64,000 bases of DNA from Methylobacterium mesophilicum SR1.6/6 (GTDB lineage: Bacteria; Pseudomonadota; Alphaproteobacteria; Rhizobiales; Beijerinckiaceae), in contig NZ_CP043538.1 in the NCBI RefSeq assembly GCF_000364445.2, positions 4,049,447-4,113,446 of the forward strand, in the 5' to 3' direction. Below the pieces are notes generated by a model. The model was not told the origin of the DNA, did no database searches, and saw nothing but the letters and a program-made list of their open reading frames with translations. Within the stretch, counting starts at the first letter, position 1. Every line of letters begins with the position of its first letter. Positions 54,239-58,335 of the stretch are shown here, piece by piece. The position numbers and the translations under genes are program-made.

Positions 54239-55645
54239 ATGAAGCTGCCCGACAAGCTCGGCCCCATCCACTTCATCGGCATCGGCGGGATCGGCATGTC
54301 CGGCATCGCCGAGGTGATGAACAACCTCGGCTACACGGTGCAGGGGTCGGATGCGTCCGACAACGCCAATGTCCGCCGTCTCGCCGAGAAGGGCATGCGG
54401 ACCTTCGTGGGCCACGACGCCAAGAACGTCGAGGAGGCGGCCCTGGTCGTGGTCTCCACGGCGATCCGGCGCGACAACCCCGAGTTGCAGGCCGCCCGGG
54501 AGCGTCGGCTGCCGGTGGTGCGCCGCGCCGAGATGCTGGCCGAGCTGATGCGCTTCAAGTCCTGCGTCGCCATCGCGGGCACGCACGGAAAGACCACCAC
54601 CACGTCGCTCGTGGCGACCCTGCTCGACGCCGGCAACCTCGACCCGACCGTGATCAACGGCGGCATCATCAACGCCTACGGCACCAACGCCCGCATGGGC
54701 GCGGGCGAGTGGATGGTGGTGGAGGCCGACGAGTCGGACGGCACCTTCCTGAAGCTGCCGGCGGACGTCGCGATCGTCACCAACATCGACCCCGAGCACC
54801 TCGATCATTTCGGCTCGTTCGAGGCGATCAAGGACGCGTTCCGGCGCTTCATCGACAACATCCCGTTCTACGGCTTCGCGGTGATGTGCATCGACCACCC
54901 GGTGGTCCAAGATCTTGTCGGCCATATCGAGGACCGGCGGATCATCACTTACGGCGAGAACCCGCAGGCCGACGTGCGCCTGATCGACGTGGACCTGCGC
55001 GGCGGCCAGAGCCGCTTCCGGGTGATGATCCGCGACCGTCGCCCCGGCTACCGGATGGAAATGGAGGATCTCGTCCTGCCTATGCCCGGCAAGCACAACG
55101 CGCTGAACGCCACGGCGGCGCTGGCGGTGGCGCACGAACTCGGCGTCAAGCCGGACGCGATCCGCAACGCGCTCGCCGGCTTCGGCGGCGTGAAGCGGCG
55201 CTTCACCCGCACCGGCGAGTGGAACGGCGCCACGATCTTCGACGATTACGGGCACCATCCGGTGGAGATCAAGGCGGTCCTGAAGGCCGCCCGCGCGTCG
55301 ACCGAGCAGGGCGTGATCGCGGTGGTGCAGCCGCACCGTTACACCCGCCTCCAGTCGCTGTTCGACGATTTCTGCACCTGTTTCAACGACGCCGACACGG
55401 TCATCGTCGCCCCGGTCTACGCGGCGGGCGAGCAGCCGATCGAGGGGTTCGACCGCGACAGCCTCGTGGCGGGTCTGCGCTCCCGCGGACACCGCGACGC
55501 CCGGGCCCTGGAGCGGCCGGAGGAACTTGCCGGGATCGTCGCGGAGCTGGCGAAGCCCGGGGATTACGTCGTGTGCCTCGGCGCCGGCACGATCACTCAG
55601 TGGGCCTATGCCCTGCCGGACGAGCTCGCCGCGCGGGGGCGGTGA
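54239..55645 (+). CDS. murC: UDP-N-acetylmuramate--L-alanine ligase
   Basis: ATP-dependent ligase adding L-Ala to UDP-MurNAc. The 468 residues show the N-terminal dinucleotide-like loop [20 protein letters not shown], the P-loop [60 protein letters not shown], and the C-terminal [18 protein letters not shown]. Length is typical. murB usually follows; here a toxin-antitoxin locus lies in between on the other strand. Confidence 0.97.
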
Positions 55646-55660
55646 GGGGATGACGGTGCG

Positions 55661-56044
55661 TCAGGGCGCGTCCGGCACGAGATCCTCGGCATCGATGCCG
55701 AGCGCCCGCGCGAGCCGTCCGTAAACCGCCATGTCCGCTGTCCATGCGCCCGCTTCAAGTGCACTGAACTCCTCCTCCGCGAGGCCGCAAGCCCTTCCCA
55801 AAGCAGCGGCCGTTTCGCCCCGGCGGGCCCGCCAGAACGCCAGCGGGCTCGGCGCCACGCGAAGAGCATCGAGGTCAGCCTCGCTGAGAAGTTCCTCCTT
55901 TCCGGCGGCCAGCCTTGCCGCTGAGTCATCGATCAGCCGAGCGTCGATCGCATCCTCCGCCAGTTCTCTCAGGCGCTCGAAGTCGGCTTCCGGCAGGATC
56001 ACGATGGCCTCTCCGGCGGGCGTCTTCGTTTTGACGATCGTCAA
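55661..56044 (-). CDS. HTH (Xre-like) antitoxin of a RelE-type toxin-antitoxin pair
   Basis: The 127-residue product is the probable antitoxin and autoregulator of the adjacent RelE-like gene. The N-terminal part (GEAIVILPEADFERLRELAE) resembles antitoxin dimerisation segments. The C-terminal part (about residues 65-125) is an Xre-type helix-turn-helix: FWRARRGETAAALGRACGLA, FSALEAGAWTADMAVYGRLA, RALGIDAEDLVPDAP. I chose the TTG at 56044 with TAGGAC upstream, 10 bases after the toxin stop; an ATG at 56089 lies inside the toxin. It is antisense to the mur/fts genes, starting just past murC. Confidence 0.75.
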   Translation of the reverse strand: MTIVKTKTPAGEAIVILPEADFERLRELAEDAIDARLIDDSAARLAAGKEELLSEADLDALRVAPSPLAFWRARRGETAAALGRACGLAEEEFSALEAGAWTADMAVYGRLARALGIDAEDLVPDAP

Positions 56045-56054
56045 GGACGGTGTC

Positions 56055-56324
56055 CTAATCGTAGATCGAGCCGCGCGGGCCGACTGCATGGACTATGATC
56101 CGATCGGGCTCGATCTTGAAGATGGCTCGCCAGTCGCCGACGCGCAGGCGCAAGCGCTTTCCATCACCTTTGAGCGCCTTCACGTTGTTGGCGAGACTTC
56201 CGGGGTCGCGTGCGTAGAGTCGGAGCTACTCACGGATCAGATCCTCGGCGTCCTTCGGCAACTGACCGAGGCTTCGCGCGGCGGCCCACGTGAAGACCAG
56301 AGCTGTGCCCGCCTCCTCAACCAT
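56055..56324 (-). pseudogene. RelE-type toxin gene interrupted by an amber stop at codon 33
   Basis: On the minus strand, ATG at 56324 to TAG at 56055 gives 89 codons that read as a RelE/ParE-fold toxin. The reading includes [40 protein letters not shown] and AIFKIEPDRIIVHAVGPRGS, then IYD. Codon 33 (56226-56228) is TAG, where homologues usually carry Lys or a similar residue (IR-x-K-L). The frame before and after is intact, so the gene seems to be disabled by one substitution, unless the stop is suppressed or is a sequencing error. It lies between murC and murB, divergent from murB by 50 bases. Confidence 0.82.
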
Positions 56325-56374
56325 CGCCTCGCGATCCCCTCACGCACGCCGGTTCTCCCGGCGCGAAGCTTAGC

Positions 56375-57301
56375 ATGACCGCATCCCTCCACGGCCGCAT
56401 CCGCGCCGCCGCGCCCGATCTCCGCGGGCGCCTGCTCAGCCATCAGCCACTGGCCGACCTCACCTGGTTCCGCGTCGGCGGGCCGGCCGAGGTTCTCTTC
56501 ACCCCCGCCGACGAGGAGGATCTCGCCCGCCTCCTCGGCGCCCTGGATCCGGACGTGCCGGTGACGGTCATCGGTCTCGGCTCCAACCTGATCGTGCGGG
56601 ACGGCGGCGTCCCGGGCGTTGTGGTCCGCCTCGGCGGCAAGGCCTTCGGCAGCGTCGCGATCGACGGCGATACGCTGACCGTCGGCACCGCGGTGCCGGA
56701 TATGCGCCTCGCCAAGGCGGCCGCCGAGGCCGGGCTCGACGGGCTCGCCTTCTACCGCGGCATCCCGGGCTCGATCGGCGGCGCGTTGCGCATGAACGCC
56801 GGCGCGCATGGCGGCGAGACCACCGACGTGCTGGTGGAAGCCCGCGGGATCGATCGCGGGGGCGCGTTGCGCACCTTCAGCCATGCCGACATGGACTTCT
56901 CCTACCGGCATACGGACGCCCCGGAGGACGTGATCTTTACGCGCGCCCTCTTCCGCGGCCGGCCCGGCGATCGGGTTGCCATCGAGGCCGAGATGGAGCG
57001 GGTCACGGCCGCCCGAGAGGCCGCGCAGCCGATCCGCGAGAGGACAGGCGGCTCGACCTTCGCCAACCCGGACGGCGGCAAGGCGTGGCAGCTCATCGAC
57101 GCCGCCGGCTGCCGCGGGCTGACGCGGGGCGGCGCTCAGGTCAGCGAGATGCACTGCAACTTCCTGATCAATACCGGTAGCGCGACCGCGTCCGATATCG
57201 AGCAGCTCGGCGAGGAAGTCCGGCGCCGCGTCCGCGACACCAGTGGGGTCGAGCTGCGCTGGGAGATCCGGCGCATCGGCCGGCCCACCGGCGCGACGTA
57301 A
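56375..57301 (+). CDS. murB: UDP-N-acetylmuramate dehydrogenase
   Basis: FAD/NADPH enzyme that reduces UDP-GlcNAc-enolpyruvate to UDP-MurNAc. The 308 residues carry [40 protein letters not shown] (FAD), [40 protein letters not shown] (catalytic Arg region) and [20 protein letters not shown] with the active-site Ser. The C-terminal [13 protein letters not shown] holds the conserved Glu. Length is typical of the short MurB class. Confidence 0.96.
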
Positions 57302-57412: not shown

Positions 57413-58335
57413 ATGTCCAAGCACGTCGCCGTCCTGCTGGGCGGCACCTCCGCCGAGCGCGAGGTCTCCCTCAGTTCCGGCAAGGCCTGCGCCGACGCGC
57501 TCGAAGGGGAGGGCTTCCGGGTCACGCGCGTCGATGTCGGCCCCGACATCGCCTCGGTGCTGACGACGCTCCGGCCCGACGTGGCCTTCAACGCGCTGCA
57601 CGGCCCGGACGGCGAGGACGGCACGATCCAGGGCCTGCTGGAGATCTTGAAGATTCCCTACACCCATTCCGGCGTCCTCGCCTCGGCGCTCGCGATGGAC
57701 AAGGAGAAGGCCAAGATGGCGATGCGCGCCGCCGGCGTCGACGTGCCGGGGGCCGCATCGTTAACCGTCTTGAGGCCGCCAGGACACACCCCATGCCGCC
57801 ACCCTACGTGGTGAAGCCCAACGCGGAGGGCTCATCGATGGGTGTGATCATCGTGCGCGACGGGCGCTCGCACCCGCCCCAGATCCTCGCCTCCGAGGAC
57901 TGGACCTTCGGCGAGCAAGTCCTTGTCGAACCTTACATAGCGGGTCGCGAGCTCACCTGCGGGGTGATGGGCGACAGGGCCCTCGGGGTCATCGAGGTGA
58001 AGGCCGCCAATGGGGGCTGGTACGACTACGACGCGAAATATGCCCCCGGCGGCTCGGTGCACGTGCTGCCGGCCGAACTTAAACCAAATGTTTACCAGCG
58101 TGTCCAAGAACTGTCGTTAACGGCGCATCAAGCACTGGGCTGCCGGGGCGTCAGCCGTGCCGACCTTCGCTACGACGACACACCGGGTGGAACCGGTCTG
58201 CTCGTGGTGCTGGAGGTCAACACGCAACCCGGCATGACCCAGACGAGCCTTGTGCCGGAGATGGCGGCCCATGCGGGCCTGAGTTTCGGTGAGCTCGTCC
58301 GATGGATGGTGGAGGACGCTTCCCTGAATCGCTGA
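57413..58335 (+). pseudogene. ddl: D-alanine--D-alanine ligase with an apparent frameshift
   Basis: ATP-grasp enzyme that makes D-Ala-D-Ala. The first part (from ATG 57413: [60 protein letters not shown]) ends in a premature stop at 57814. The second part, in another frame, continues as [52 protein letters not shown] and LEVNTQPGMTQTSLVPEMAA to 58335. The join lies at a run of five G at 57748-57752; a sixth G would give VPGGRIVN and one normal-length enzyme. ddl is normally essential, so a homopolymer sequencing error is likely. The 3' end overlaps ftsQ by 34 bases. Confidence 0.88.

Follow-up and report, generated by a model that had tools for sequence, protein, structure and literature searches.

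A RelE-type toxin–antitoxin module with an interrupted toxin and a DUF559 gene as alternative occupants of the murC–murB gap in Methylobacterium

The gap between murC and murB in Methylobacterium mesophilicum SR1.6/6 carries, antisense to the mur genes, an open antitoxin gene and a RelE-type toxin frame interrupted by an in-frame TAG, and in most species of the genus the same gap is filled either by this pair or by a sense DUF559 gene. We analyzed a 64,000-nt stretch of this genome (hereafter the window) together with the corresponding gap throughout the genus and in other genera of the family. The account that we regard as probable for the whole is that the pair would be a type II toxin–antitoxin (TA) module, with a RelE-fold toxin first and a helix-turn-helix (HTH) antitoxin second, that a nonsense mutation would recently have silenced the toxin of the window strain while the antitoxin remained open, and that the gap would be a two-cassette site of the genus, whose alleles are swapped by recombination. 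The comparisons below demonstrate the identity of the toxin, its interruption, the conservation of the module and the alternation of the cassettes, and they show that the choice between the two is free of phylogenetic signal. Among the matches listed in a literature search, no title concerned a TA or DUF559 locus between murC and murB.

Results

The module in the window

The features of the locus are as follows.

54239–55645, plus strand: murC, left flank (ORF), which served as the left anchor of the survey
55661–56044, minus strand: antitoxin, 127 aa from a likely TTG start (ORF, PF13560 match, 121 homologues)
56055–56324, minus strand: interrupted RelE-type toxin frame of 89 codons, closed by its own stop (frame, homologues, genome profile match)
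56226–56228, minus strand: TAG stop lying in frame at toxin codon 33 (sequence)
56055–56183, minus strand: GTG-started 42-aa ORF restricted to the toxin's C-terminal half (ORF)
56325–56374, no strand: divergent 50-bp spacer between the toxin start and the murB start (sequence)
56347–56363, no strand: inverted repeat in the spacer, putative operator (sequence)
56375–57301, plus strand: murB, right flank (ORF), which served as the right anchor

When the window sequence was re-read, the coordinates, the gene order and the TAG interruption proved to be as the sequence-only reading had given them, and the 89-codon minus-strand frame is unbroken except for the TAG at codon 33. The antitoxin ORF, which that reading described as preserved, is indeed open; it ends at 55661, and the listed ATG at 56089 would give 142 aa. 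Since its 121 homologues are mostly about 124–130 aa long, many of them 127 aa, translation likely starts at the TTG at 56044, 10 nt past the stop of the toxin. A Cro/C1-type HTH lies at residues 86–136 of the 142-aa ORF, which scores 27 bits against PF13560 at a cut-off of 27, and the relative P0002 scores 32.1 bits; PADLOC gave no more than weak HTH matches for P0002. Toxin and antitoxin keep their order, strand and place in other Methylobacterium genomes. The module and murB are divergent, 50 bp apart, and the inverted repeat in the spacer is possibly a candidate operator; by-eye comparison found similar forms of it in close relatives and none in the other TA-bearing clades.

Identity of the toxin

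The read-through of the toxin frame (with X at the stop) gave 178 protein matches at E <= 1e-3. The best match is P0121 of Methylobacterium sp. A49B, an intact 89-aa RelE-family protein with 92% identity over 100% of the length, and a frame with so many matches, the best of them so close, is not a chance one. A profile of 16 intact relatives led to RelE3 of M. jannaschii (3bpq, E 2.8e-5), the sole PDB sequence that it matched at E <= 0.01, and the alignment of these relatives has an arginine-rich C-terminal half with a nearly invariant Tyr near the end. For structure prediction, the intact relative P0121 was modelled in place of the window's own frame. The AlphaFold2 model (pLDDT 84.8) best matches RelE of T. 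thermophilus (2khe, E 4.3e-6, TM 0.80); RelE proteins hold ranks 1–9 and 11 among its fold matches, and HigB2 first occurs at rank 33. Sequence and predicted fold thus agree and support the assignment as RelE-type, so that the toxin identity proposed by the sequence-only reading is borne out by the search of the 89-codon read-through.

With the Pfam model ParE_toxin (PF05016), the window read-through scored 22 bits, just below the cut-off of 23, and the three intact relatives tested were all above it (23.3–27.4 bits); the 42-aa GTG ORF remained below it at 18.9 bits. The NCBIfam RelE/StbE cut-off of 27.9 was not reached, as P0154 scored 13.3 bits and P0121, P0122 and P0130 gave no RelE match, and NCBIfam assigned the window read-through to no family. 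PADLOC found no defence family for P0121. The toxin-family profile matched a single place in the window genome at E <= 1e-3, with one TAG inside, and no second copy elsewhere in the genome at this threshold. We infer that an intact toxin of this family would act as a ribosome-dependent mRNA interferase. A metagenomic protein of 222 aa (P0119) contains a RelE-type toxin and an antitoxin fused in one chain.

Occupants of the gap in the genus and family

We surveyed the gap in one genome per species, with murC and murB as anchors, and 106 of 111 genus genomes were readable; the five left out were G101 and G027 (no murB match), G014 (split between contigs), and G098 and G064 (murB only). Toxin and antitoxin were found together in 34 of the 106 gaps, in the same order and on the same strand. 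Two gaps contained a toxin remnant only, one an antitoxin remnant only, and one (G030) the antitoxin with DUF559, the toxin being displaced. DUF559 alone occupied 52 gaps, 15 were short (<250 bp), and one held something else. The pair or its remnants are therefore present in 38 gaps and DUF559 in 53, with G030 counted in both, and 68 gaps have no trace of the pair. All matches to the pair lie on the minus strand, antisense to mur, and all DUF559 matches on the plus strand, in the sense direction. By eye, some of the short gaps keep the tail of the DUF559 unit. The module is a regular occupant of the gap in Methylobacterium and not an oddity of the window strain; the view that such a pair is unusual in a core division operon is not borne out for this genus by these counts. 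The genus-wide comparison suggested by the sequence-only reading thus showed the recurrence of the pair and, in addition, a second occupant.

From the other genera of the family, stretches were taken from 40 of the 93 genomes that gave a murB match, and 37 gaps were readable. None of these 37 gaps contained the pair, one had a clear DUF559, and one gave a weak match (E 8e-3). Four of the stretches from other genera (L281, L289, L291 and L294) have gaps of 685–712 bp that lack the pair and contain no clear DUF559, L291 giving a weak match.

State of the module and order of loss

The state of the module was judged in the 38 gaps by open frames, irrespective of start codons. Both frames are open in 25 of them and, given the fixed order and strand, the module is a conserved co-directional pair of the kind expected of type II TA systems. 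The toxin is broken beside an open antitoxin in the window strain (G000), G079, G066, G075 and G030 (toxin displaced), and in G039 its frame stays open without the usual stop, again beside an open antitoxin, so that toxin loss next to an open antitoxin accounts for 5–6 of the 38 gaps. In seven gaps, both sides are degraded or remnants (G042, G062, G105, G035, G050, G090 and G093). The antitoxin frames of G105 and G035 are open but shortened, with only 37–39% identity, and in G035 the toxin frame is open with the usual stop lost, which makes this gap ambiguous for the order of loss. Apart from the ambiguous G035, the reverse situation, with the toxin intact and the antitoxin broken, is not clearly seen in any of the 38 gaps. 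This pattern would fit a toxin lost before its antitoxin, the order expected of a TA pair, and toxin loss would then precede, or coincide with, the loss of the module.

The DUF559 cassette

An open stretch of at least 95 codons is present in 48 of the 53 DUF559 gaps (for example, L067:1105-1416), and these genes gave an omega of 0.14 with relative branch lengths held fixed; both cassettes are under purifying selection (omega 0.11–0.14). The gap protein of G067 scored 133.9 bits against PF04480 and matched a solved endonuclease-like protein (3hrl, E 6.9e-23). By these matches, the alternative cassette is a sense DUF559, Vsr-like gene of the PD-(D/E)XK type, with a predicted nuclease-like product. 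The DUF559 gene has a palindromic tail (repeats of the GGGGAGAGGG type) that extends up to murB. Anywhere in the genome, DUF559 is found in 97 of the 111 genus genomes, with up to six matches in one.

In the 1046-bp gap of G030 (L020), the DUF559 unit starts within the last codons of the toxin and reaches murB, and the antitoxin is open. This arrangement looks like a replacement caught part-way. A more far-reaching interpretation, which we consider rather unlikely, takes the gap as a contest of two self-preserving cassettes, each resisting replacement: the TA module would resist by addiction, the DUF559 nuclease would damage cells or alleles without it, and toxin-dead alleles such as those of the window, J-070 and G030 would permit the swap. 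It follows from a parallel with VsrA of Caulobacter, a DUF559 Vsr-like protein of the PD-(D/E)XK superfamily (PMC12907096). The SOS response of Caulobacter cells without the solitary cytosine methyltransferase ScmA needs VsrA (PMC12907096), and such a gene can therefore penalise the loss of its partner. The DUF559 domain is common to VsrA and to the alternative cassette.

Alternation of the cassettes between relatives

A tree built from 714 columns of the 106 murC/murB flanks, in which 37 of the 103 inner branches lack resolution, requires 32 changes of the TA state, with a shuffled mean of 30.9 and 371 of 500 shuffles as low, and 37 changes of the DUF559 state, with a shuffled mean of 35.6 and 383 of 500 shuffles as low. 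The nearest flank neighbour shares the state in 43 of the 89 TA or DUF559 genomes (null mean 45.3). Neither the shuffles on the flank tree nor the nearest-neighbour test thus detected phylogenetic signal in the choice between TA and DUF559, and the starred branches force at least 14 changes in each of the two. Short gaps cluster (7 changes against a shuffled mean of 15.2, a value that none of 500 shuffles reached), and a weak signal is present when all four states are taken jointly (40 changes against a mean of 44.4; 13 of 200 shuffles as low). A tree of 15 genomes from full murC, murB and ftsQ places the window strain among DUF559 and short-gap genomes with modest support. Recombination within murC and murB could scramble the 714-column flank tree.

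The cassette sequences themselves correlate with their hosts, with Mantel r of 0.71 for the antitoxin (35 rows), 0.69 for the toxin (33 rows) and 0.63 for DUF559 (49 rows), none of 999 permutations being as high. The TA and flank trees (28 rows) have 17 of 25 splits in common, yet each data set rejects the tree of the other (AU 0.0006 and 0.002); the DUF559 and flank trees (48 rows) have 15 of 45 splits in common, and the rejection is stronger than for TA. Each cassette is conserved, and its sequences roughly follow the hosts, yet are formally incongruent with them. Along the flanks, state-linked divergence was absent from murC and confined to nucleotides 1–30 of murB, where the start is partly extrapolated, so that no long recombination tract was caught.

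An ancestor of the genus that held both cassettes in the gap, of which each lineage then lost one, would account for the rough agreement of each cassette with host relationships, and G030 does contain an antitoxin together with DUF559. However, none of the 106 gaps has both cassettes intact, tblastn (E <= 1e-3) found a remnant of one beside the other only in G030, and the DUF559 unit of G030 begins inside the C-terminal end of the toxin, which fits a replacement and not an old tandem. Such an origin would also call for about 30 or more losses, and we think it improbable. The pattern would most likely be explained if relatives swap entire alleles of the gap, with murC and murB as the flanks for homologous recombination; most species have either the module or the sense DUF559 gene, and each of them fills the gap.

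The stop in the toxin frame

The same stop codon occurs at the same position in G079 (Methylobacterium sp. J-070), whose frame is otherwise open, and in both G000 and G079 the frame runs on beyond the stop without indels. Of the 33 aligned toxin copies, the remaining 31 all encode an amino acid at codon 33, and P0121 of A49B also has a sense codon at this position. In the module tree, G079 pairs with G097, which has the sense codon, and not with G000. Since this grouping and the intact A49B copy make two separate stop events the simpler account, shared ancestry of the two stops is not favoured. The probability of two independent nonsense changes in the same codon is about 0.08–0.10, as estimated from five naturally intact frames, and the coincidence is therefore unremarkable; reversion or exchange may also possibly lie behind the pattern. 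The sequence-only reading held that a sister genome with a sense codon at 56226–56228 would make the toxin an active one. Such sense codons are indeed found in many relatives and prove that intact copies exist, but activity of the window copy does not follow from them.

We examined selection by branch tests with a codon-model script written by ourselves; once broken or partial sequences had been excluded, 28 of the 33 toxins and 31 of the 35 antitoxins were covered. The toxin omega is 0.114 both overall and as background, 0.10 on the G000 branch (2dlnL 0.03), 0.03 on the G079 branch (2dlnL 3.26) and 0.11 on the G039 branch (2dlnL 0.05); the intact control G097 gave 0.25 (2dlnL 1.49). These tests thus revealed no relaxed selection on the toxin frame in G000, G079 or G039. 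The antitoxin omega is 0.14 as background, 0.08 on G000 (2dlnL 2.07) and 0.05 on G079 (2dlnL 4.61). Three positions that are invariant across the 16 aligned intact relatives are altered in the window toxin, which may be a hint of decay, although the omega test does not mirror it. Since no branch is relaxed, either the stops arose recently or the frame continues to be used; we prefer youth, which the substitution pattern makes probable for the window stop. The earlier description of a decayed toxin is correct as to the interruption at codon 33, but the omega tests gave no sign of a long decay, and the toxin of the window strain has likely been inactivated recently by a nonsense mutation, with the antitoxin left open.

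The sequence-only reading further proposed that the antitoxin may persist to regulate the murB promoter region; to this account, in which the toxin would have decayed long ago, we give little credence. Six lineages do have a broken toxin (stop-lost in G039) beside an open antitoxin, the antitoxin omega on these six branches is 0.10 against the background of 0.14 (2dlnL 3.38), and the repeat-bearing spacer separates the divergent module from murB. However, most of each fitted branch may predate the stop or other toxin loss. The constraint on the toxin frame matches that of intact copies, so that little time has passed since toxin loss, most of the genus gaps (68 of 106) manage without the pair, and the inverted repeat, compared by eye, is not common to all TA-bearing clades. 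A lasting role of the antitoxin at murB is therefore unsupported, and the interval since toxin loss may simply have been too short for the antitoxin to vanish.

The window also contains a second interrupted gene, ddl (57413–58335), whose reading frame breaks into two near 57750, at a distance of about 1.5 kb from the TAG. The three relatives compared (G002, G097 and G063) all have ddl in one frame, and in G079 no ddl ORF was found with the motif used. The two ddl halves are the best D-Ala-D-Ala ligase matches of the window genome, in which no place reaches the cut-off. Since ddl is essential, the frameshift is probably an assembly error and otherwise a striking loss, and the assembly of the window should be treated with caution, as base errors are possible. 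If the TAG were itself such a sequencing or assembly error, the toxin of the strain would work, in keeping with the unrelaxed omega of its frame and with the intact frame of the close relative P0121. Against this, ddl is broken by an indel and the toxin frame by a base substitution, and three further conserved positions are altered in the window copy. Moreover, the separately assembled J-070, a different species, has an identical stop at codon 33, which renders a random base error unlikely, and we accordingly judge that the TAG is hardly an artefact.

Recoding of the stop was tried with a CTA-anticodon pattern search, a pattern test and not a full tRNA census, which gave three genome hits; ARAGORN identified two of them as tRNA-Glu and the third as no tRNA. 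Continued use of the interrupted frame, via read-through or restart at GTG 56183, would agree with unrelaxed selection in either stop-bearing species and with the indel-free continuation of both frames past the stop, but it is very improbable given that no true CTA-anticodon tRNA is among these hits, that the strand and helices of the N-terminus are missing from the ORF after the stop, and that three conserved positions are altered.

Discussion

The toxin of the present module resembles the RelE/StbE mRNA interferases of RelBE systems (2khe, 3bpq, 1wmi and 4fxe) in size, fold, arginine-rich C-terminal half and Tyr near the end. Unlike in RelBE, the toxin gene comes first, the antitoxin has a C-terminal Cro/C1-type HTH, and the NCBIfam model RelE_StbE is not reached. 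In HigBA-type modules, the toxin likewise comes first and is followed by an HTH antitoxin. The present module shares this gene order and the HTH antitoxin, whereas the fold of its toxin is nearest to RelE and reaches HigB2 only from rank 33. Orphan antitoxins and degraded chromosomal TA modules, in which the antitoxin is left after toxin loss, have been described (PMC7354431); the present case differs in that it recurs at one fixed core-gene site, where the other occupant is a nuclease-like gene.

For a TA module to end as a disabled toxin next to a living antitoxin is nothing out of the ordinary. It is less ordinary that a single junction of two essential cell-wall genes is occupied, from species to species and regardless of kinship, by a TA pair or else by a nuclease-like gene, and it is this alternation of cassettes between two core genes that merits further study. 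Should a whole-genome tree show the same pattern, it would provide a natural experiment on the function of chromosomal TA modules, in which many near relatives differ at one locus.
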